The notes under the pieces were generated by a model. That model worked only from the letters and a program-made list of their open reading frames with translations. It did no database searches and was not told where the DNA came from. The translations under genes and the position numbers were made by a program. A DNA stretch of 64,000 nt from Canna indica (taxonomy: Eukaryota > Streptophyta > Magnoliopsida > Zingiberales > Cannaceae), in NCBI GenBank assembly GCA_034359265.1, contig CP136898.1, positions 50,767,501 to 50,831,500 on the forward strand, given 5' to 3'. Of the stretch, positions 6,065-63,816 are shown piece after piece. Each line of letters begins with the position of its first letter. Position 1 is the first letter of the stretch.

Positions 6065-7310
6065 CACTACTAGAATATACTACATCAGCCACGGGCATCA
6101 CCGACGGCCGCCTCGGCCCTCAGAATTAGTCACGGCTCTTCGATGGCTGTAGCGACCGTGGCTGATGTAACCAAATAAGCCGCAGCTCACATACGACCAC
6201 TTACAGCTATCGCTCATAGTTGATGGCGCGCACGGGGCGCGAAACAAAATAAGTTATTAGCCATGACTTAGCGAGGGCGCGAGAGCCATTGGTGATATGG
6301 ATAAGTCATTAGCCACGGCTAGAAGCAGCCGTCGCTTATTAATTAATGGCGCGAACGCAGCACGAAAACTAAAACACTATGAACCAACAGCTTAGAGAGG
6401 GTCAGCCGTCGGAGATATTAAAATTACGAATCCACAGTTTTTCGACGGCTAGCGAGCCATGGGTGAAAATAGTTTTTATTTGCGTTCGCGCCCGACCCTT
6501 CCTCTTTCCCCTGCTCTCTTCTCTCTCCATCGTTGACGATGATTTGTCACCGCCGATCGTCACCGCGCCGCACCCTCGCCGTGTCGCCTGCTCCCTCGCC
6601 CTCACCGCATCGCCTCCCCGACCCTCTCCCCCTCTCTCTCGCCCAGACCGCCGCCCCTCTCCCGGCCCCCTCGATCTCCGTCGCCCACGCGCGCCACCAC
6701 CGACCTGCTCCCTCGCCCTCGCCGCCAATCCCTCTCCCCTCTCCGCCACCACCAAGTGAGTTCATCCCCCTCCCCTCTCCGGTCCAGCACCGATCGAAAC
6801 CCTAGGGTTCCGGCTGACGCCGACCAATATTATATATATATATAATTAGTGTTAATTACTGTTATTAGTGATTAATTAGATTTATTTACTATTAATTAGT
6901 TTTCAATTAGATTTAATTATTGTTAAGTAGTTGTTAATTAGATTTAATTAGGGTAGAATAAATGTTAGGATTAATTGTAGTTGGGTGTAATTATAATTAT
7001 GAAATCATCCACTTTGGAGTCGCGCGCTCTGAAATCGTCCACTTTGGACTTGCGCTGAAATCGTCAATAAAGGATGGACTCGCGCACGCCGGAATCGTCC
7101 ACTTTAGATTCGCGGCCAAATCGTCCATGGTGGACTCGCGCCGGAATCAAGACAAGTTGATACGTTTCACGTACGATCGACGAGTCAAGTTTTAATTTTG
7201 CAAAATGTTAGATCCGTTCGGGGGTTGTATGTTCGTGTAAACGAAGTTAATGATCTTTTATACGACGTACAACCCTTGAATTGTCCCTAATTGGATAATT
7301 TGGGAGCATA

Positions 7311-7498
7311 GTTATTTATATTGCACTTAGTTTATTTTTTTTAGTCATTAACTTCATTTTTAAATTTTGGCTTGTATCTCCCTCGTTCTTCGATACGCGC
7401 CCAGATGATATGCGTATTAGGAGAACTATAGGGAGATGCTGCCGAAATTTAAAATGAAGTTAATGACTAAAAAAAATACTAAGTTCAATATGAATAAC
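7311..7498 (+). other. Long hairpin in the ORF1 leader of CACTA-1
   Basis: The left arm (7311-7398) and right arm (about 7412-7498) are near-perfect complements with a 13-nt loop around GCCCAGATGATAT. The hairpin ends about 75 nt before the ORF1 ATG, upstream of a TTTGACAG that looks like a splice acceptor, so it may lie in a leader intron. An equivalent hairpin occurs at the same place in CACTA-2 (60005-60194). Its role is unknown; a structured intron, a small-RNA precursor or a binding site are all possible. Confidence 0.8.
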
Positions 7499-7572
7499 AT
7501 GAATCCCGAATGGAATAGGACCATCCCACCTAAAGACATTACCTAAAGATATTGCAAACTTTTTGACAGAAC

Positions 7573-9208
7573 ATGTCGGGCGATCAAAGTTGGATGTACC
7601 GACGAATTCATCGTGGAGCTATAATGGACGAATTTCGAGTAGGCGTAACTTACTTCTTAAATTTCACCTACTCGAATGAAAAATTCCTTAGTGGTGATAA
7701 AATCCGATATCCATGCCGGAAATGTTCAAACATAAGATTTTTGGACCAAGAAACTGTCAGACTGCATCCGTATACAAAAGGATTCACACCAAGATATTTT
7801 GTATGGAATTGTCACGGGGAGTCACGTCAAGTTGGGACGTCGAGCAATCCTATTGTCCAAACTCATGGTGAATCTTCTTCTGCTGGTGTTTCTTCTTCCA
7901 ATCCACCTAATCCTTATAGAACAATGATTCTGGATAGTCTTGGAGGACAATTCCATTCAAATGATAATATTGAGTCAGTTACTGAGACGGTAGTGCCACC
8001 AGATACTATGGCAGTTGAAGTCATTGAAGAACAACCTGAGATACAGATTGAATTGCCGAATAAGGAGGCTGCAAAATTTTAGGAGATGTTAAAAGCCGCC
8101 GATGAACCTTTGTACGAGAATTGTCCTAATTATACAAGATTTTCGACAATGACACAACTCCTGAACATCAAGTCCGATTGTAATATCAGTGGGGTTGCAT
8201 TTGATCGGATTCCAGGCTCTATCAGTGGTATGCTACCTCCAAATAACAAGTTTGAGCCAACCTTTATAAGACAAAAAATTTGATGAGAAAATTAGGGCTT
8301 GGGTACGAAAAGATACACGTGTGCCCAAATAACTGCATTTTATATTATAAAGAAAATGCACAGTTAGAACAATGCTCGGTATGTGAACATCCTCGTTACA
8401 AGGAGAAGAAATCAGTCCGACAAAAAAATAACCAAATCGTGAGTTCCTTTATTGGTTTCAAGCTTACAACACAGAACATAGAGGCGAAATAGATAACCAA
8501 ATCTTTGAGTTTGCTAGCGGATCAGCACGACTTGTACAATGTTATAATGGTTATTTTGTCAATGGATATAAATTTCACACACTTGAATATTCATCTACAA
8601 AAAAGACTATGATTGCCGGGGTCTGCGTCAAAGAGACAACGTATGCTGAATGTGATGTTGACTTTTACGGACTATTGGAAGAAGTCATTGAATTATAATT
8701 TTTCGGATGTAAATCAGTTGCCCTTTTTAAATGTCATTGGTTCGATACAAGCGATAGGGGCATGAGAGTTCATCCAAAGTATAAATAGCTGGTCGAGGTC
8801 AATTACAAATCAAAATTGGCTTCAAATGAGCCATTTATATTGGCATCTCAAGCTGAACAAGTATATTATATGCAGTATTCATCTCGAAAGAAAGACAGGG
8901 CAGATTGGCGTGTAGTCTATAAGACTAAAGCCAGAGGAAAAATTGGCCCAATAGTTGGAGATAATGAGCCAGCATATGACTTCTATCAAGAAGAGGATCC
9001 TTCCAAAGTGGAACGAGTTAGTCCAATACTCGAGGATGATGACACAGAGTTAGTTCAATTGGAAATAGAATACGTTGATGAAGACGATAATAAAGTTGAG
9101 GAAGGACAGAATGAAGATGAGGGAGACGAAGAAGAATTTCAAGATTCAGATACAGAAGAACAAGAAGAAGAGTATTACACGGATGGTGATAATGACGATG
9201 ATGAATAA
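7573..9208 (+). pseudogene. CACTA ORF1 (TNP2-type transposase), internally deleted remnant
   Basis: The N-terminal Transposase-associated domain is present (7573-7840): MSGDQSWMYRR, DKIRYPCRKCSN, and a WNCHGES motif that ends it. A stop at 8080-8082 replaces the tyrosine codon TAC of CACTA-2 with TAG, and a frameshift follows near 8275. At about 8425-8440 the sequence jumps from RYKEKKSVRQ directly to the region before DUF4216, removing the TNP2 catalytic core and DUF4218. DUF4216 follows (about 8510-8960, with VCVKETTYAECD and HPKYK visible across frameshifts), then an acidic tail rich in Glu/Asp that ends at 9208. It cannot make an active transposase. Family assignment is firm from comparison with the CACTA-2 copy. 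Confidence 0.9.
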
Positions 9209-9296
9209 TTGTAAATATGAAGTATATATTCAATTATTAAATATATCTATTATATATAATCTAATTATATTAAATTTTCTCAACTATGGTTCGATA

Positions 9297-10918
9297 TATT
9301 TGTTCTTGAGGAGGCATTTCTCGTAAGACCCCCCGACGATTACCACCCGCCCCACCTGTACCCACTGACCCTTCGTCTTCCACCACCATCCCCCCACCTT
9401 GTTCGGCCACCATTCCCCCACCTGATCCATCCACTATTCCCCCAGTTGATATGGTCACCATCCCCCCAACTCCAGCCACCATCCTTTCAGCCGATCCAGG
9501 CCCGTCGACATCGAGACGTAGGCCACAAGGGCCTAACAGAATTCTTCCTCCGCCACCCGAGGGACAACTGCGTAGAGCAGTTACTGTGCGCGGAAGAAGG
9601 TAAGTATGTGCATTAATTATTTCTTATAATTTATTTATAATTTAAAATATCATAATATGAATTTATATATGGTGCAGATTTGAGCAGGAAGACATCCCCC
9701 CGCACGATAGCGGGGATGATCCGGAAGTTTATGCACGGGGCGTGGCCTACATGGTCTCACGTTCCCCGTGAGCATATAGATTTATTGTGGCGAGAGTTCA
9801 CGGTAAGTATATTTATTAAATTAATGTTAATGTTAAATATTGATCGGTAACAATAATTTATTTTTTGCAGGGTCATTATATATGGCCGGAGGATCAGACC
9901 ACTTTTGTGGAGGCTGCATGGGAGTGTGTTGCCCGTGTTCGCTATAACGCCCCCGAGTGGATTCCTAGCCCTGTATGGGACCATCTCGTTGAGCGGTGGG
10001 ATACCTTGAGTGGCAGGAGGTCTCCCGGACTGCGTCAAGAAACCGCATGTCCGGGGGGGACGGCACGGGGGCGCGCCACACTGGTGGCTCCATATCTTTT
10101 ACGGTGCATGAGCGTCGTATGGTATGTATAATTTCCTTACTTTTAATTAAATTATATATTGTGTATAATTATACTAATGTATTTATTTTCTAATGTAAGA
10201 CATGCGTGATGGAGGACGACACCGTCCAACGCCCGTCGATGATGGAGTTGTTTGAGCGCACCCATCGTCGTCGATGAGGAGCGAGGGACTACGTTGATAG
10301 CAGAGCCTCGACCATAATGGTAAGTATTTATATATGCTTATTTGATTTACACAATTTTTATTTATAGTTTATATATATTTAAAATATAAACACGTGTAGG
10401 AAACTTATTCGATGACTGTGATCGAGCGTGGAGGGACACCGGAGGAGTTCGACACAGGAGCTTGGGTGAAGGCCGCAGGTAGATGGGAGCACGGCCGTGT
10501 TTATGGTTTTGCAGACAGTGGCCATGCACGTGCCGTGCTCGGGCCACTTGGGGCACCGACCCCTCCGACTGTGGGTGAGCGGCCCTCATCATCCCGAGCG
10601 CAGGACCAGAGCCGGATAGCGTCCATGGAGTTGGAGCTCACCCAATAGAGACAGACGATGGAGGAGCAGAGGAACGCGATGGAGGAGAGCATGCAAGAGC
10701 AGAGGCTGACGATGAAGGAGCAGATGGAGGAGCAGAGACGGTCGAATGATGAGTTGAGACAGACGATCCAGAACATGCAGACACTCCTCACTCAGATTGC
10801 GTCTCAGTCCGACCTTCTACCTATGATGTCGCAGTCGTCGTCCTCCTCGACCCAATCGACACTCCCGACCCAGTCGTTGTCGACTCCACCACCTCCACCG
10901 CCGCCACAGTCGTCGTGA
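9297..10918 (+). pseudogene. CACTA ORF2 (Transposase_24 / Ptta-En-Spm type), degenerate
   Basis: The second gene of the element, in five exons that I place by splice sites and family motifs: about 9297-9599 (ending GRR before GTAAGT), 9678-9802 (HGAWPTWSHVPREHIDLLW), 9871-10121, 10200-10319 (MMELFERTHRRR, YVDSRAS) and 10400-10918 (YSMTVIERGG, then a Met/Gln/Glu coiled coil and a Pro/Ser C-terminus). These match the DNA-binding second protein of plant CACTA elements. Exon 3 has a frameshift between WDHLVERWDTL and EVSRTASRNRMSGGDGTGA, exon 4 has a TGA after THRRR, and exon 5 has an in-frame TAG near 10646. The start codon seen in CACTA-2 is lost. Confidence 0.8.
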
Positions 10919-11576
10919 GATTTTGATTAATTGTATTTTGTTTATATTTTGATACTTGATATAGATGATATTTTGATACTTAGATATATTTTGAAACTTG
11001 GATATATAGATGATATTTTAATAATTGTTTGCCTCCGGTTTGAGGCTGAGATTGATGATATTTATGTAAAACTTGTATGTTTGGTTTCAAATGCATGTGT
11101 ATGATATTTTCTGATTGTAATATGTGATTAAAAATAGGTTGTAGTCGATATATCATTGTATACAGGAATTTATAAATTTTTTAGTTTTTTCAGTTACAGG
11201 ATAACATCTTTAGCCACGGTTTACCTACGGTTAACCGTCACTAAGCCGTGGCTGAAAGCCTATCGTAAATGGCTGATGGCCTCGGCAGGACCAAGTATCA
11301 CAGTTGCTAATAGTATCATCGACGGCTATGAGCCGAGGCTGATGTGTTGGTATCAGTGACAGCGCCCAGAGCCGTCACTGATGATTTTAAATTAGCGACA
11401 GACCACTAGGCTGTCGCTGATGATTATGTGTGACGGTCGTGCGCGGCTGTCACAAAACATCTGAGACGCACACATAAGAGATGGTTGTTTGCCACGGTTG
11501 ACGCCGTCCGTGATATTCATCACCGACGGTTCAGCCACGGTATCAGTTGTCGCTGATGACCACAATTCTAGTAGTG

Positions 11577-22760: not shown

Positions 22761-22869
22761 AAGAAGGAGAAAAGGTGTAGAAGAATATATAAAAAAAACT
22801 ATGTTAAAAAACATTAAAAATTAAAAATTTATTAAAAAAATATACAGGAGGCGGGAAATCTCCCGCCTC

Positions 22870-23095
22870 CTGCGCTCGTCCGCCCATTACCCGCCGCGTG
22901 GCGGAAATCGCGCGGCAGCCAATTCGCTGCCGCGCGATTTCCGCCACGCGTCGGAAATCGAGCGGCAGCCAATCTGCTGCCGCTCGATTTACGCAGCGTG
23001 GCGGACATCGCGCGACAGCCAATCTGCTGCCGCTCGATTTACGCAGCGTGGCGGACATCGAGCGGGCATGAATCCCGCTCGATTTCCGCCGCACA
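22870..23095. repeat. GC-rich inverted and tandem repeats in CACTA-4
   Basis: Alternating GGAAATCG[C/A]G[C]GGCAGCC and GCTGCCGC[G/T]CGATTT motifs form at least three consecutive hairpins with 15-20-bp arms, repeated as about 60-bp units (CAGCGTGGCGGACATCG occurs twice exactly). No gene. They would make stable stems in any read-through transcript of the upstream gene. Confidence 0.8.
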
Positions 23096-55982: not shown

Positions 55983-56193
55983 TTCGATAGAATTTCGACG
56001 TAGAAATTAATAAAGAGAGAGATTGAGAGAGATTGAGAGATTGAGAGTTTAGAGGGGTGAGTGAGGATGAAAGAAGGGTGTTTTGGGGGCTTTATATAGC
56101 CCCAAAACAACCCAAATGTATCCCAAACGGCTCTATAGCCGTTTGGGATCACTATTGATCATACCGGGCGGTATACCGCCCGGTATGTATGTA

Positions 56194-56277
56194 ATACCGC
56201 CCGGTTTGGGCGGTATATATCAAATACCGCCCGATATCGGGCGGTATTTGATATATACCGCCCAAACCGGGCGGTAT
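56194..56277. repeat. Perfect 84-bp palindrome in the hAT subterminal region
   Basis: The 42-bp left half is the exact reverse complement of the right half, centred on CGATATCG between 56235 and 56236. Each half contains ACCGCCCGGTTTGGGCGGTA and AAATACCGCCCGAT. It lies about 0.2 kb upstream of the transposase start and 0.28 kb from the element's end. It could extrude as a cruciform or bind transposase. Confidence 0.95.
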
Positions 56278-56286
56278 GATTCCCCA

Positions 56287-56343
56287 TGTGGCCGACAGCC
56301 CTGTCGGGCTGTCGGCCACAGAGCCGTTGGCAACGCCAACGGC
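56287..56343. repeat. Two GC-rich perfect hairpins
   Basis: 56287-56320 has a 15-bp stem (TGTGGCCGACAGCCC) with a 4-nt loop. 56323-56343 has a 9-bp stem (GCCGTTGGC) with a 3-nt loop. Both sit in the hAT subterminal zone between blocks of ACCGGGCGGTAT repeats. Confidence 0.9.
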
Positions 56344-57477
56344 TTTGCGGTGACATACCGCCCGGTATCGCCCATACCGGGCGGTATGAGCATATACCGC
56401 TCATACCGGGCGGTATATCGCATCATACCGCTATATACCGCCCGGTATACACAGTATACCCGGTTTTTTTCAAAACCAGGTATATCGAATACCGGGAAAC
56501 TCAAAAACCGGTATATACCGGCCGGTATATACCGTTTCGGTCGAGATTTTAAACCTTACTTGGATATCCGAATCATGATCAGGTGCAAAATTTTGCTAAA
56601 AAATAATAGTCAAGGCAAAAAAAAGTATTAAAACAACTTGGTTTATGAAGCTAATCAAACCTTGGAAATTGTGGTTTGGAGTAAAGAGAGGCCGCTCTTG
56701 GATCTCAGCAACTGAGACAAACTGCAAAAAGTTCAATAACTAATAACCGTACTACAAGTTCTTCACTTTTCCTTATTGTGGGAAAAAGCCATTTACTTAA
56801 TTGTATAGGCAATAAAGAACCATCAAATTTTCTATCATCAAACAAATAATATGACTTTAAAAAGCCACAAGGAAGATGATGAGGATATTTCCGTTAGCAT
56901 GTTGAAGGAAACACACTGTTGGGGAGATATCTTTTTCCGGAACTATTGAGTAGATTTGCCTATTTTAAAAGCTCATAATCTGAGTCAAAGCAACCACAGG
57001 ATACCAATTCAACATAAAATCTAAAGTTGTTTGGGTTGTGGGCCAAGTGCAATATATATTACTTTGCTTTTTTTCTGAAACAGAATATATGTTATTTTGC
57101 TTATTCAATATCTGTCCATGTGATTCTATTATGTAACCTAAGTTTAGTTTAACTTGAAGAAACATACTCAACAGGAACGATTTTCAAATACATACTTTCT
57201 ACTTCCATGGAGAAGAAAAAATAACCAAGAAAAAAGTATTTATTGATATAGCTATAAGCATACTGGTATCTACTTTCAAGAAAATTGAATTTCCATGTAC
57301 CTTTGACATAGAGAACTTGATCTCAATTAAATATGCTAATCCTCTTGTATGTGTTATTGTGACCAAGAACATAGCACCTTTGACATTGGCATGAAGGTTT
57401 GGTTCGTCGCTTTTGGGCCCAAGATCGACCTCAGGAGCAGGTTTGTAGATCTTCTGAGTATCTCGGAAGAGACCCAA

Positions 57478-58857: not shown

Positions 58858-58879
58858 TGACGGACACTACTAGAAACTT

Positions 58880-59190
58880 GGTCTTCAGCAACGGCTATCA
58901 GCAACGACTATCAGCAACGGCCGCTCAAGCCGTTGCTATTTGCAACGGCATTCTTATGGCCGCTCGAGCCGTTGCAAATATGTTGTATCTGCAACGGCTT
59001 TCTAACGGACACGCGTGCCGTTGCTGATGATGTTAATTATCAGCAACGGCTTTCTAACGGACAAGTGAGCCGTTGCAGATGATAACTTATTAGCAACGGC
59101 TTGCTAACGGACAAGTGAGCCGTTGCTGATGATAACTTATCAGCAACGGCTTTCTAACGGGCGAGTGAGCCGTTGCTGATAAGTTTATAT
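58880..59190. repeat. Subterminal repeats of CACTA-2
   Basis: At least eight copies of AGCAACGGCTTTCTAACGG or shorter AGCAACGG, each followed within about 25 bp by GAGCCGTTGC in inverted orientation. Units of about 55 bp form serial hairpins. This is the expected location and form of binding sites for the CACTA DNA-binding protein. Confidence 0.85.
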
Positions 59191-59632
59191 AGGTCGCAGA
59201 TCGCGCCCGCCCCCCTTCTTCCTCCCGCTGTTGCCGCCGCCGCTCCTCTCCTCGCCTCTCGCCGCCGCTGCCGCTGCTGCCGACGCCGACGACTCCTCCC
59301 GCTGCTGCCGATACTGTCAGGTATGTGCCCTCCGGCTGCCGTCTCTTCCCGTTGCGGCTGGTAGAAAATCTAACCGAAACCCTAAAAATAGGGTTTCGGC
59401 CGGCGGCGGTTGGCCGATGGCCACCGCCGGACCTTGTACATTGGCCGGACAGTGTGTCCGGCCAGTGTACGCCGGCGCCGGAGTCCACCTGACTCCGGCG
59501 CCGGAATTTGTAGTTTAATAATATTTTATTATTGTTTTTTAATTGTTTTTTAATTGTTAATTAATTGTTAATTAATTATTTAGATTAGTTATTTAGTTTG
59601 TTAGAATAATTTTTAGGGTTTAGATTAATTTC

Positions 59633-59808
59633 GGAATTATCCACTTCGGACGCGCGCCGGAATCGTCCACTTCGGACGTGCGCCGGAATCGTCCACTTCG
59701 GACGTGCGCCGGAATCGTCCACTTCGGACGCGCGCCGGTATACACTTCGGACGCGCGCCGGAATTGTCCACTTCGGACGCGCGCCGGAATCGTCCAATAT
59801 GGACTCGA
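59633..59808 (+). repeat. 26-bp tandem repeat in the CACTA-2 leader
   Basis: Seven units of GGAATCGTCCACTTCGGACG followed by CGCGCC or TGCGCC, one of them shortened (GGTATACACTTCGG). The block lies in the presumed leader intron. CACTA-1 has about five degenerate units of the same repeat (7002-7150), so it is an old part of the family. Coding frames across it are artefacts. Confidence 0.88.
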
Positions 59809-60004
59809 ACGGTCTCGAAACATTTAGAAAATAATCATGCATCCGACGAGTTCATATGTTTCACGTACGCATCGACGAGTCGGATATGATTTAGCAAAAC
59901 CTTAGATCCGTTCGGGGATTGTATGTTCGTGTAAAAGAAGTAGATGATCTTTTATACGATGTACAATTCTTGAATTGTCCCTGATTGGACAATTTGGAAA
60001 TATA

Positions 60005-60194
60005 GTTATTTGTACTGCACTTGCGTTTTTATTTTAACTATTATCTAATTATTCTAAATTTCGGCAACATCTCTCTTGTTCTCCGATACGCGCCCAGATG
60101 ATATGCGTATTCGGAGAACTATAGGGAGATGCTGCCGAAATTTAGAATAATTAGTTAACAGTTAAAATAAAAATGTAAGTGCAGTTCAAATAAC
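60005..60194 (+). other. Long hairpin in the ORF1 leader of CACTA-2
   Basis: Arms 60005-60090 and 60104-60194 pair over about 87 bp with few mismatches around a loop of GCCCAGATGATAT. The lower stem ends in GTTATTTG/CAAATAAC. It stops 75 nt before the ORF1 ATG and before a GATTGACAG acceptor. The apical stem and loop are almost the same as in CACTA-1; the middle stem differs in sequence but pairs equally well. Confidence 0.85.
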
Positions 60195-60268
60195 ATAAAT
60201 CCCGAATGGAATAGGACAATCTCACCTAAAGACATTAACCAAATAAATTGTCATTGATTGACAGAATT

Positions 60269-63200
60269 ATGTCGGCTGATCGAAGTTGGATGTACCAACG
60301 TCTTGATCGTGGAGCTTTAACGAATGAGTTTCGATTAGGCGTAACGTACTTCCTAAATTTCGCCTATTCGAATCGGAATTTCGTTAGTATGGGTGATCAA
60401 ATCCGATGTCCGTGCCGCATTTGTTCAAATGGACGATTTTTGGATCGGGAGACTGTCATTCTGCATCTATATAGCAAAGGATTTGCACCAAGATATTTTT
60501 TATGGACTTGTCACGGGGAGTCACGCGAAGTCGGGACGTCGAGCAATCCTGTCGTTCAGACATATGGTGAATCTTCCTCTGCTGGTGCTTCTTCATCCAG
60601 TCAATGTAATCCCTATAGAACTATGATACTTGATAGTCTTGGGGGTCAATTCCACCTGAATGATAATGTTGATCGGCCAGTTCTTCAGACATCAGTCCCA
60701 CCAGATACTACAGCGGTTGATATCACAGAAGTAGGGGCTGCGGTAGAGATTGAATTACCGAATAAAGAAACCGCAGAATTTTACGAGATGTTGAAAGCTG
60801 CCGATGAACCTTTGTATGAGAATTGTCCTAAATACACTAGGTTTTCAGCAATGATACAGCTCTTAAACATCAAGGCCGATTGTAATATCAGCGGAGTTGC
60901 GTATGATCGGATTGCTGGATTGATTAATGGAATGCTGCCTACTAATAACAAGTTTGAGCCTACTTTTTATAAGACTAAAAAGCTAATGAGAAAATTGGGG
61001 CTTGGGTACGAAAAAATACACGCGTGCCAAAATAACTGCATTTTATATTATAAGGAAAATGTGCAATTGGATAAATGCCCTGTATGTCAACACCCTCGTT
61101 ACAAGGAGAAGAAATCGGTCCGATAGAAAAATATCCCGTTTAAGGTGCTTCGGTATTTTCCACTAACACCGAGGCTTCAAAGATTATTCATGTCGGAAAA
61201 GACAGCCCCCTACATGAGTTGGCATGCAAGAAGTCGTGATGATACAGTAATGACTCATCCATCTGACAGTGAAGCATGGAAACATTTGGATACATGTTAT
61301 CCTTCATTTGCTAGGGATACTAGAAATATCAGATTGGGATTGTTCACAGATGGTTTTAATCCGTTTGGACATTCTGCAACTCCTTATTCAGTTTGGCCAG
61401 TGCTGCTGACAGTTTATAATTTGCCACCGTCAATGTGCATGAAAGATGAATTTATTTATCTTTCGATGATTATTCCGGGTCCTAAGGGTCCGCGAAAAGA
61501 AATTGACATATTTCTCAGACCCTTGATAGATGAATTGAAAACATTGTGGACTGAGGGAGCTGTCACTTATGATTGTCATCGGAAGCAAAACTTCAATTTA
61601 AAGGCCGCGGTCTTGTGGACAATCAATGATTTCCCCGCGTACGGCATGTTGTCGGGTTGGAGCACTCACGGCCGACTCTCTTGTCCGTATTGTATGGAAC
61701 ACTCTAAATCAATCAGTCTTCAGAACGGACGAAAAATCTCATTCTTTGATTGTCATCGTCGATTCCTACCGGTTAATCATCAGTATCGAAGGAATCGTAA
61801 TAAATTTACTAAGGGCAGAGTCGAAAGAGATGGGCCACCACCGATGTTGTCTGGTGAACAAATGTTAGCACGTGTTTCAGCACTTCCAGATATAGTATTT
61901 GGTCGCAATGAAAGAGTGTCAGGTTTTGGCCAAACACACAACTGGGTGAAAAAAAGTATCTTTTGGGAATTGCCCTATTGGAGTTCATTATTGATTCAAC
62001 ATAATTTAGATGTCATGCACATTGAAAAAAATGTGTTTGATAATATTTTCAACACTTTGATGGATATTTCTGGAAAAACTAAAGATAATGTCAAAGCCCA
62101 ACATGATCTGAAAATACTTTGTAAAAGACCAGAGTTGGAGTTACAAGAGGTCAACGGACGATATCTGAAATCGAAGGCCCTATATGTGTTAAATAAACAA
62201 CAGATCAAAGATGTTTGTCAATGGGTAAAAGAACTCAAATTACCCGATGGATATGCTTCAAACTTATCTCGATGTGTGAACGTCGATGATTGCAAAATAT
62301 CAGGGATGAAGATCCATGATTGTCATGTATTCATGCAGAGATTACTTCCGATCGCATTTCGAGATCTTCTACCTGATAATATTTGGGGTCCGTTGACTGA
62401 ATTAAGTATGTTTTTTAAAAGCATCTGTGCAAATGTCCTTCGAGTCGAAGATATGTCTACACTTGAAAATAATATTGTTGAAATCATATGCAAGCTGGAG
62501 CAGTTTTTCCCTCCTGCATTTTTTGACTCGATGGAGCATCTACCGATACACTTGGCATACGAGGCACGAGTTGGTGGCCCCGTTCAATATCGTTGGATGT
62601 ACTTATTTGAAAGATACATGAATCGTCTGATGAAAAAAGTAAAGAACACCGCAGCTGTTGAAGGATCAATATCTGAATCGTATATCATCCAAGAAATTTC
62701 AACATTCTGCTCATTTTACTTTGAATCGACGGTACAGACAAGATTTGATCGTCTTCCACGTAACGACGACGGGGGTGTTCGACATTCAGATGAACGTTTA
62801 AATATATTTTGTCACTCTGGTCGTGCTTTTGGTTCTCGTCCATCTTGACACTTAAGCGATGAAGAGTATCATTTGGCACACTTGTATGTATTACTCAATT
62901 GTCCAGAGATTGAACAATTCATTGAAATATTTGACATTGAGATGGTGCAAAAATACTCTATTCACAACGATCAAGAATTGGAGAGATTACGGAATCGTGA
63001 TTTCCCTACTTGGATTCAGACTTACAGCAAAGATCACAGAGCTGAAATAGATGAAAGAATATTTGAGTTTGTTAGTGGACCGTCGCGACTTGTGTCGTGC
63101 TATAGCGGATATTTTGTTAACGGGTATAAATTTCACACGGTTGAATATTCATTTACAAAGAAGACGATGAATGCTGGGGTCTGCGTGAAAGGGACAACCT

Positions 63201-63739
63201 ATGTTGAATGTGATATGGATTTTTATGGACTGGTGGAAGAAGTGATAGAGTTGCACTACTTCGGCTTGAAATCAGTGATCCTATTTAGATGTCATTGGTT
63301 CGATACAACAGAAAGGGGCATGAAAGTTCATCCAAAATACAAACTTGTTGAGGTTAATTACAAATCGAAATTGGCAGCAAATGAGCCTTTTATATTGGCA
63401 TCACAAGCCGAACAAGTATATTACGTGAAGTATCCGGCTCGAAATAAAGATAGAGCAGATTGGCATGTAGTCTGTAAGACAAAAGGTAGAGGAAAAATTG
63501 ATCCGATAGTAGGAGAAAATGATCCTCCTGGTTTCTATCAAGAAGATGATCTTCCTGCTGTGGATCGTATTATTCCAATACTCGAGGATGCAGACACAAC
63601 GTCAATTCAATTAGAAGTTGAATATGCTGATGATGACGATCATGAAATTGAGGAAGCTGGAGATGAAGAAGATGAAGAAGAGGAAGAAGAGGAAGAAGAA
63701 GAAGAATTCGAAGACTATTATTCAGATGATGAGGAATAA
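60269..63739 (+). pseudogene. CACTA TNP2-type transposase, full length with two stop codons
   Basis: One reading frame of 1,157 codons starts MSADRSWMYQRLDRGAL, four bases after a GACAG acceptor. Domains in order: Transposase-associated (about 1-85; CPCRICSNGRFLDRETV, WTCHGESREVG); TNP2 core (about 330-560; LGLFTDGFNPFG, KAAVLWTINDFPAYGMLSGW, HNLDVMHIEKNVFDNI at about 590); DUF4218 (about 715-830; MEHLPIHLAYEARVGGPVQY, SYIIQEISTFC); DUF4216 (about 965-1080; HWFDTTERGMKVHPKYKLVE); and a Glu/Asp-rich tail. Stops are TAG at 61124-61126 (CACTA-1 keeps a CAA-like Q codon there) and TGA at 62846-62848 (fits CGA). Both fit C-to-T change. It would cut and move CACTA ends if intact; two read-through or reverted codons separate it from a full protein. 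Confidence 0.92.
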
Positions 63740-63816
63740 TTGTAAAGTATATATATTTTATTAAATATATCTCTACTATTTATACAATAATCTGATTATA
63801 TGTCTGTTCGACAGAT

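Follow-up and report, generated by a model that had tools for sequence, protein, structure and literature searches.

Two CACTA elements lie within the 64-kb stretch of Canna indica DNA analysed here (the window), both read on the forward strand, as are all features given below. CACTA-1 spans positions 6065-11576, from CACTACTAGAAT to ATTCTAGTAGTG, as established from its termini and by blastn. Both of its ends are present, it is flanked by TAA and TGA at the places where a 2-3 bp target-site duplication was looked for, and the bulk of tnp2 is absent. CACTA-2 begins with the 5' terminus CACTACTAGAAACTTGG (58865-58881, read from the sequence) and extends beyond the end of the window, with its 3' end outside. 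Its ORF1 (60269-61126, the ATG being placed from the reading frame) encodes a Transpos_assoc domain (Pfam PF13963, E 4.7e-19, in a scan started at 60248). It is followed by the tnp2/DUF4218 part of the transposase at 61145-62848 (PF02992, E 9.8e-86; PF13960, E 1.1e-42) and by the DUF4216 part at 62873-63739 (PF13952, E 5.4e-26). All four domains by which a CACTA (En/Spm) transposase is recognised (Transpos_assoc, Transposase_21, DUF4218 and DUF4216) are therefore found in CACTA-2, and a scan confined to ORF1 of CACTA-1 finds Transpos_assoc there. In blastn, 59845-61136 of CACTA-2 corresponds to 7151-8433 of CACTA-1 (81%), and 62993-63801 to 8435-9270 (76%). An ORF1 protein query returns 30 relatives at E ≤ 0.001, several of them from flowering plants. 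Elsewhere in the window, a dense palindromic array of TACCGCCCGG-type repeats at 56083-56480 contains the strongest 190-nt fold (-155.9 kcal/mol), and GC-rich tandem inverted repeats of GGAAATCGCGCGGCAGC-type units occupy 22841-23090 in AT-rich surroundings.

Upstream of ORF1, each element has a probable leader intron. In CACTA-2 this would extend from 59321 to 60264 (CTGTCAG^GTATGT ... TTGACAG^AATTATG, read directly), and in CACTA-1 from 6756 to 7569 (CCAA^GTGAGT ... TTTTTGACAG^AACATG). A leader intron had already been suspected in the preliminary description, and that reading fits the good splice-site sequences of both elements, the 3' site lying just before the ATG in each. Among 27 CACTA-2-type copies that were located, the 3' splice motif TGACAG is kept in 26 and lost in one (L012), while the 5' splice string is found in six of the eight such copies that have enough upstream sequence. 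The leader of a second CACTA-1-type copy, L041, has an insertion-like, GAGCTCGAGC-rich stretch at its positions 7290-7560, upstream of the fold described below.

Between these splice sites lies a long hairpin, here called P4. In CACTA-2 it occupies 60005-60194, with its 5' arm at 60005-60092, its loop at 60093-60103 and its 3' arm at 60104-60194, and it folds at -111.2 kcal/mol (RNAfold; z -21.1). Its counterpart in CACTA-1, at 7311-7498, folds at -98.1 kcal/mol (z -17.6), both z scores being taken from 200 dinucleotide shuffles per hairpin. The end of P4 is 75 nt from the ORF1 ATG in both elements (ATG at 7573 and 60269). The preliminary description had reported a hairpin of about 190 nt at about 75 nt from this ATG in both copies; its coordinates and spacing are confirmed, and the middle-stem sequences that it gave for the two copies are correct. 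Stability by itself is not special to P4, since stretches of the window at 56161 and 22901 fold equally strongly or more so. The window's copy also carries variants within its close family: of 29 rows, 5 have A at 60040, which weakens P4 in the window's copy, and 24 have G, whereas at 60174 14 have T and 15 have C (the window's copy being counted twice in both tallies). A reading frame across the CACTA-1 hairpin, used as a protein query, found no homologue, and an exact search of viral_contigs and genome_contigs with a 21-mer of the upper 3' arm gave 0 matches.

The leaders of CACTA-1, CACTA-2 and L041 fold into four helices, P1 closing a junction around P2, P3 and P4. On this folding model, P4 is a component helix of a larger structure, P1-P4, that is present in both copies in the window and probably sits inside the leader intron of each. 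In CACTA-2, the two strands of P1 lie at 59907-59916 and 60201-60210, each without a difference from CACTA-1 over its 10 nt, and they enclose the hairpins P2 (59917-59968, 7/52 differences) and P3 (59969-59997, 2/29). In CACTA-1, the 5' strand of P1 with P2 and P3 occupies 7213-7304, and the 3' strand of P1 7505-7514. Without P4, the leader fold still has z scores of -6.4 (CACTA-2) and -6.3 (CACTA-1). Folding is better on the sense than on the antisense strand in 43/43 copies for the segment from the P1 5' strand to P3, and in 40/43 for P4, the copies being related and not independent. This strand bias is moderate evidence, both because of that relatedness and because an absolute strand difference of at least 12.6, the value of P1-P3 in CACTA-2, is reached by 17.8% of 169 other structured windows of 128 nt. 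Of 43 copies, only 27 have an exact sequence in both strands of P1. In CACTA-1, a segment of P2, AAACGAAGTTAATGA (7239-7253), resembles part of the P4 3' arm, AATGAAGTTAATGA (7453-7466), which may reflect a possible template or chance.

The position of P4 within this fold bears on its origin. P4 might be an old MITE-like insertion in the leader that has no function: the CACTA-2 hairpin ends in a terminal inverted repeat, GTTATTT...AAATAAC, with ATA on either side. However, this flank repeat is not kept in CACTA-1 (ATA/ATG), and for this reason the insertion reading was set aside. The hairpin also lies at the same place, within P1, in CACTA-1, CACTA-2 and L041, and P1 and the loop are nearly frozen. 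We regard a functionless insertion as very improbable.

Comparison of the two elements indicates which parts of the fold are held. Their synonymous p-distance is 0.39 in ORF1 and 0.45 in the 3' ORF, and 15% of non-synonymous sites differ in both. In a MAFFT alignment, differences number 0/20 in P1, 0/11 in the loop, 1/40 in the upper 3' arm and 9/81 in P2 and P3 together, as against 8/30 in the upper 5' arm, 18/58 in the outer arms and 14/48 in the middle arms. Thus the earlier statement that loop and upper stem are nearly the same holds for the loop and for the 3' side of the upper stem, but not for its 5' side. P1, the loop and the upper 3' arm together differ at 1/71 sites, against 39-45% at synonymous sites, so part of the leader fold looks functional as judged from this contrast. 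The loop and upper 3' arm form a frozen block at 60093-60143, in which 1 of 51 aligned sites differs. In the outer and middle stem, the sequence changes far more and the pairing is still kept.

In MIR genes, the miRNA and miRNA* are usually conserved and the loop is free to vary. The two copies compared here depart from that pattern, with an unchanged loop, a 40-nt stretch of 3' arm that is almost invariant and a 5' arm that is not. This bears on the possibility that the hairpin is a microRNA or siRNA precursor directed against host silencing, and is kept for that reason, which would be compatible with the arm copying discussed below. The long and nearly perfect stem speaks for such a precursor, as does the contrast between a frozen 3' arm (1/40) and a 5' arm that varies more freely (8/30). 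The CACTA-borne miR820 of rice targets OsDRM2 (PMC3459959), and maize CACTA elements map more small RNAs in regions of low folding energy (PMC10760457). The rice case shares with ours a fold-back within a CACTA element, but its fold-back resembles parts of OsDRM2 and its small RNAs and target were measured, whereas our hairpin is known from sequence alone. The maize hairpins are likewise CACTA hairpins that may feed small RNAs, but they are biased to the terminal inverted repeats, whereas P4 is internal and precedes ORF1. A precursor of this kind would not, however, need P1-P3, nor does it account for a loop as frozen as the arm. No match in the 64-kb window attains the gathering score of an Rfam family; the matches below that threshold lie on both strands and involve unrelated families, almost all of them miRNA families, and were judged to be driven by structure. 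A search of the window for complements of the arm gave, as the best 40 listed, the hairpins themselves. We consider a small-RNA precursor rather unlikely, though worth keeping in mind.

The preliminary description had also noted that each copy keeps its own pairing, and the numbers bear this out. In a hand alignment, in which CACTA-1 and CACTA-2 differ at 21/85 positions of the 5' arm and 16/86 of the 3' arm, 11 of 83 gap-free pair columns have changed on both sides and are still Watson-Crick. When an equal number of changes is placed independently (20,000 trials), such double changes average 1.6 and never exceed 9. Likewise, 79 of the 83 pairs survive in CACTA-1, where the simulation leaves 57 on average and 69 at most. 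A tally over the CACTA-2 consensus, CACTA-1 and L041 gives G-U against A-C columns at about 17 to 1, a ratio that is kept out of the main argument, as folding by MFE has a preference for G-U. Covariation in a stem is commonly read as selection on RNA structure and, taken alone, the paired changes seen here would suggest selection on pairing. On this reading, the two arms changed stepwise by compensatory substitution, passing through G-U or mismatched intermediates, and no arm was ever copied. The 11 pairing-preserving double changes fit it, as do the frozen P1, loop and upper 3' arm, and P2, which shows one double change together with one-sided changes to or from G-U pairs. On the other hand, about 4 of the 11 double changes, as read from the alignment, are transversions with no G-U route, and none of the 33 paired middle-stem columns of CACTA-1 is a G-U pair. 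The signal computed under independent change had been taken as a sign of selection; it is reinterpreted here, since the wider family suggests that the changes are not independent events.

The family was surveyed in the window's own genome (752.9 Mb). The 26-nt loop core occurs, with up to 3 mismatches, at 8096 places, and a reversed control at none. A first look yielded 1383 candidates, from which 40 scored places are 98-100% identical to the CACTA-2 hairpin; in an alignment of 28 close copies, the window's included, private changes are mostly C-to-T and G-to-A. Twenty 10-kb stretches sampled blindly yielded one further copy of the hairpin, L041. The copies compared come from 59 of 100 places listed out of the 8096, all of which have the exact core and lie in the first 15.3 Mb of contig C1. 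With the two elements of the window and L041 this makes 62 copies, and since the sample is conditional on an exact loop core, conservation of the loop across them is no evidence. Typed by arm motifs, the copies fall into four groups: 2/2, the group of CACTA-2 (35 copies), 2/3 (10), 3/3 (9) and 1/1 (8). One of these, L096, was wrongly typed as 2/3, as its 3' arm breaks off after TTTAGAATAAT, a 2/2-like start, and then is unlike other copies. Without it there are 61 copies, with nine of type 2/3, and the groups were compared as consensus sequences.

The preliminary description had proposed that more copies be collected, folded and tested for covariation. The hairpins do fold, with an MFE for their region that spans -60.5 to -127.7 among the first 43 copies and -67.7 to -128.3 among the 19 added to these, and the arms co-vary across the family, but in the case of CACTA-2 this covariation is best read as copying. 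Across the first 43 copies, own arms pair at -106.7 against a mean of -97.0 when arms are exchanged, and none of 10,000 permutations is as low; this advantage is partly explained by the relatedness of the copies. When the comparison is restricted to 2/2, the advantage of own over swapped arms is slight (P 0.06).

What separates 2/2 from 2/3 is confined to one arm. Among the first 43 copies, the 2/2 (24) and 2/3 (6) consensus sequences do not differ in the upstream flank (0/98), the 5' arm (0/87) or the downstream flank (0/81), the flanks compared being short, about 180 nt. The 3' arm, by contrast, differs in 9/81 columns and 3 gap columns. With 61 copies (35 and 9), the three identical segments remain at 0/98, 0/87 and 0/81, and the 3' arm differs in 10/81 plus 3 gap columns. 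In the first-43 consensus, 2/2 has as its 3' arm the reverse complement of its own 5' arm, and copying accounts for 10 of the 12 differing columns; the remaining two fall outside the copied tract. In the 2/2 consensus, perfect complementarity between the two arms extends over 52 consecutive nucleotides of the 5' arm. Mapped by eye onto CACTA-2, the minimal tract that distinguishes 2/2 from 2/3 as a reverse complement of the 5' arm lies at 60149-60187, and the pair register, in which paired positions sum to 120199, places its probable source at 60012-60050. In stability the two groups are fully separate, with a hairpin MFE of -104.4 to -128.3 (mean -119.8) for 2/2 and of -75.4 to -98.7 (mean -89.8) for 2/3.

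These features are those expected of a template switch: a tract that is the reverse complement of a nearby source, inside flanks and opposite a 5' arm that are unchanged. Our best reading is that the paired change in CACTA-2 represents one arm-to-arm copying event of the template-switch type rather than many compensatory substitutions. The preliminary description had left the choice between selected pairing and the copying of one arm onto the other. For CACTA-2, copying is favoured by copies whose 3' arm is different although their consensus agrees with that of 2/2 in both flanks and in the 5' arm. Constraint is also indicated for parts of the fold. Stepwise substitution would have to alter at least 10 columns of the 3' tract at once, with consensus 5' arm and flanks remaining the same. 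In its favour, individual 2/3 copies differ among themselves at single positions in the 3' middle stem. On balance, we judge a purely stepwise history quite improbable.

The direction of the copying is suggested by parsimony. The 2/3 form of the 3' arm is likely the older state, because this form is common to 2/3, 3/3 and 1/1: the 2/3 arm differs from 3/3 in 3/81 columns (4/81 in the first 43 copies) and from 1/1 in 10/81, both with 61 copies. Age gives no support for the direction, since divergence is equal in the two groups (3.9% each over flanks and 5' arm, 3.7% in 2/2 and 4.2% in 2/3 overall) and is 4.0% between them. An earlier argument from age (7.4% in 2/3 against 3.5% in 2/2) was an artefact of the mistyped broken copy L096, without which the values are equal. 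Among the non-2/2 copies, the 3'-arm sequence inspected shows no tract that is copied only in part.

The same proximity of the 2/3 and 3/3 arms allows another history, in which 2/3 copies arose by recombination or gene conversion between 2/2 and 3/3 and so are derived rather than relics of the state before copying. That the 2/3 arm is near 3/3 and far from 2/2 suits this history, as does a divergence of 2/3 no higher than that of 2/2. Yet the downstream flank of 2/3 is that of 2/2 and not of 3/3, from which it differs in 2/84 columns (4/84 in the first 43 copies), so that the conversion would have been confined to the 3' arm. Moreover, the 2/2 arm departs from the form of 3/3 and 1/1 and complements its own 5' arm. 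The 2/3 copies seen today might be survivors of the earlier state or else 2/2 elements that 3/3 has since converted, the latter being unlikely in our view. Even if 2/3 copies are converted 2/2 elements, the copying event is still required, because the 2/2 arm has to arise.

An opposite event, in which the 5' arm was rewritten, is possible in the CACTA-1 lineage. Between 3/3 and 1/1, the 5' arm differs in 20/81 columns and the 3' arm in 8/81 in the first 43 copies (Fisher P 0.02, one of several looks), and in 19/81 and 8/81 with 61 copies. These counts support it weakly, given that the lineage offers no before-state, that several looks were taken and that alignment in this T-rich sequence is uncertain.

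Taken together, the data make it probable that the family has a structured leader RNA, P1-P4, in which P4 was re-perfected by arm-to-arm copying and constraint keeps the fold. In the CACTA-2 lineage, parsimony suggests that, in one event, a stretch of 39 nt or more in the 3' arm of this helix of the probable leader intron was replaced by the complement of the 5' arm. The mechanism would most simply be a replication template switch across the inverted repeat. As a result, the differing positions of the 3' arm would have changed together with pairing intact. In its simplest form, the history would lead from an imperfect hairpin, through one template switch or an equivalent copying event, to a near-perfect stem. 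Copying would then be how the arms change together, and the persistence of the fold is probably owed to constraint, which is stronger on P1, loop and upper 3' arm than on P2 and P3. As to its role, we tentatively prefer a cis-acting element in the processing of the transposase pre-mRNA, the most likely of the functions considered though one on which we would not insist.

Template-switch mutations are known to create and to mend RNA hairpins (Monttinen and Loytynoja, 2022; PMC8794818). In that work, as here, one arm of a stem is rewritten as the reverse complement of the other, with many paired changes at once. There, however, the evidence for the events came from microRNA loci and, in rRNA genes, from ancestral sequences that had been reconstructed, whereas in the present case a DNA transposon preserves both states of the arm as copies within a single genome, and the tract measures at least 39 nt. 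Foldable CACTA sequence is also described in the subterminal stem-loops of soybean TgmR (PMC4219821), which are subterminal repeats rather than a single leader structure. Among the matches listed, the titles and abstract beginnings name no comparable CACTA leader hairpin, the search lying mostly outside the subscription literature. What seems new is the combination of two arm states, each present as many copies in one genome, inside the structured leader of a transposon.

That copies in one and the same genome can be alike except for one arm suggests that a single copying event can yield the whole of a covariation signal. The 8096 loop-core sites would permit copying events to be counted and their direction and tract length to be established, and the family would permit a test of whether a perfected hairpin affects the spread of a transposon. 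Of the 61 typed copies, 35 are 2/2 and 9 belong to the otherwise identical sister type 2/3, at equal divergence. By turning a leaky hairpin into near-perfect double-stranded RNA, the arm copy may have brought a gain, either in intron processing or as a Dicer-type substrate through which silencing is escaped or tuned, and this gain could be why 2/2 outnumbers 2/3; we hold this to be distinctly unlikely. If true, it would mean that a structural mutation made by template switching rendered a transposon lineage more successful.
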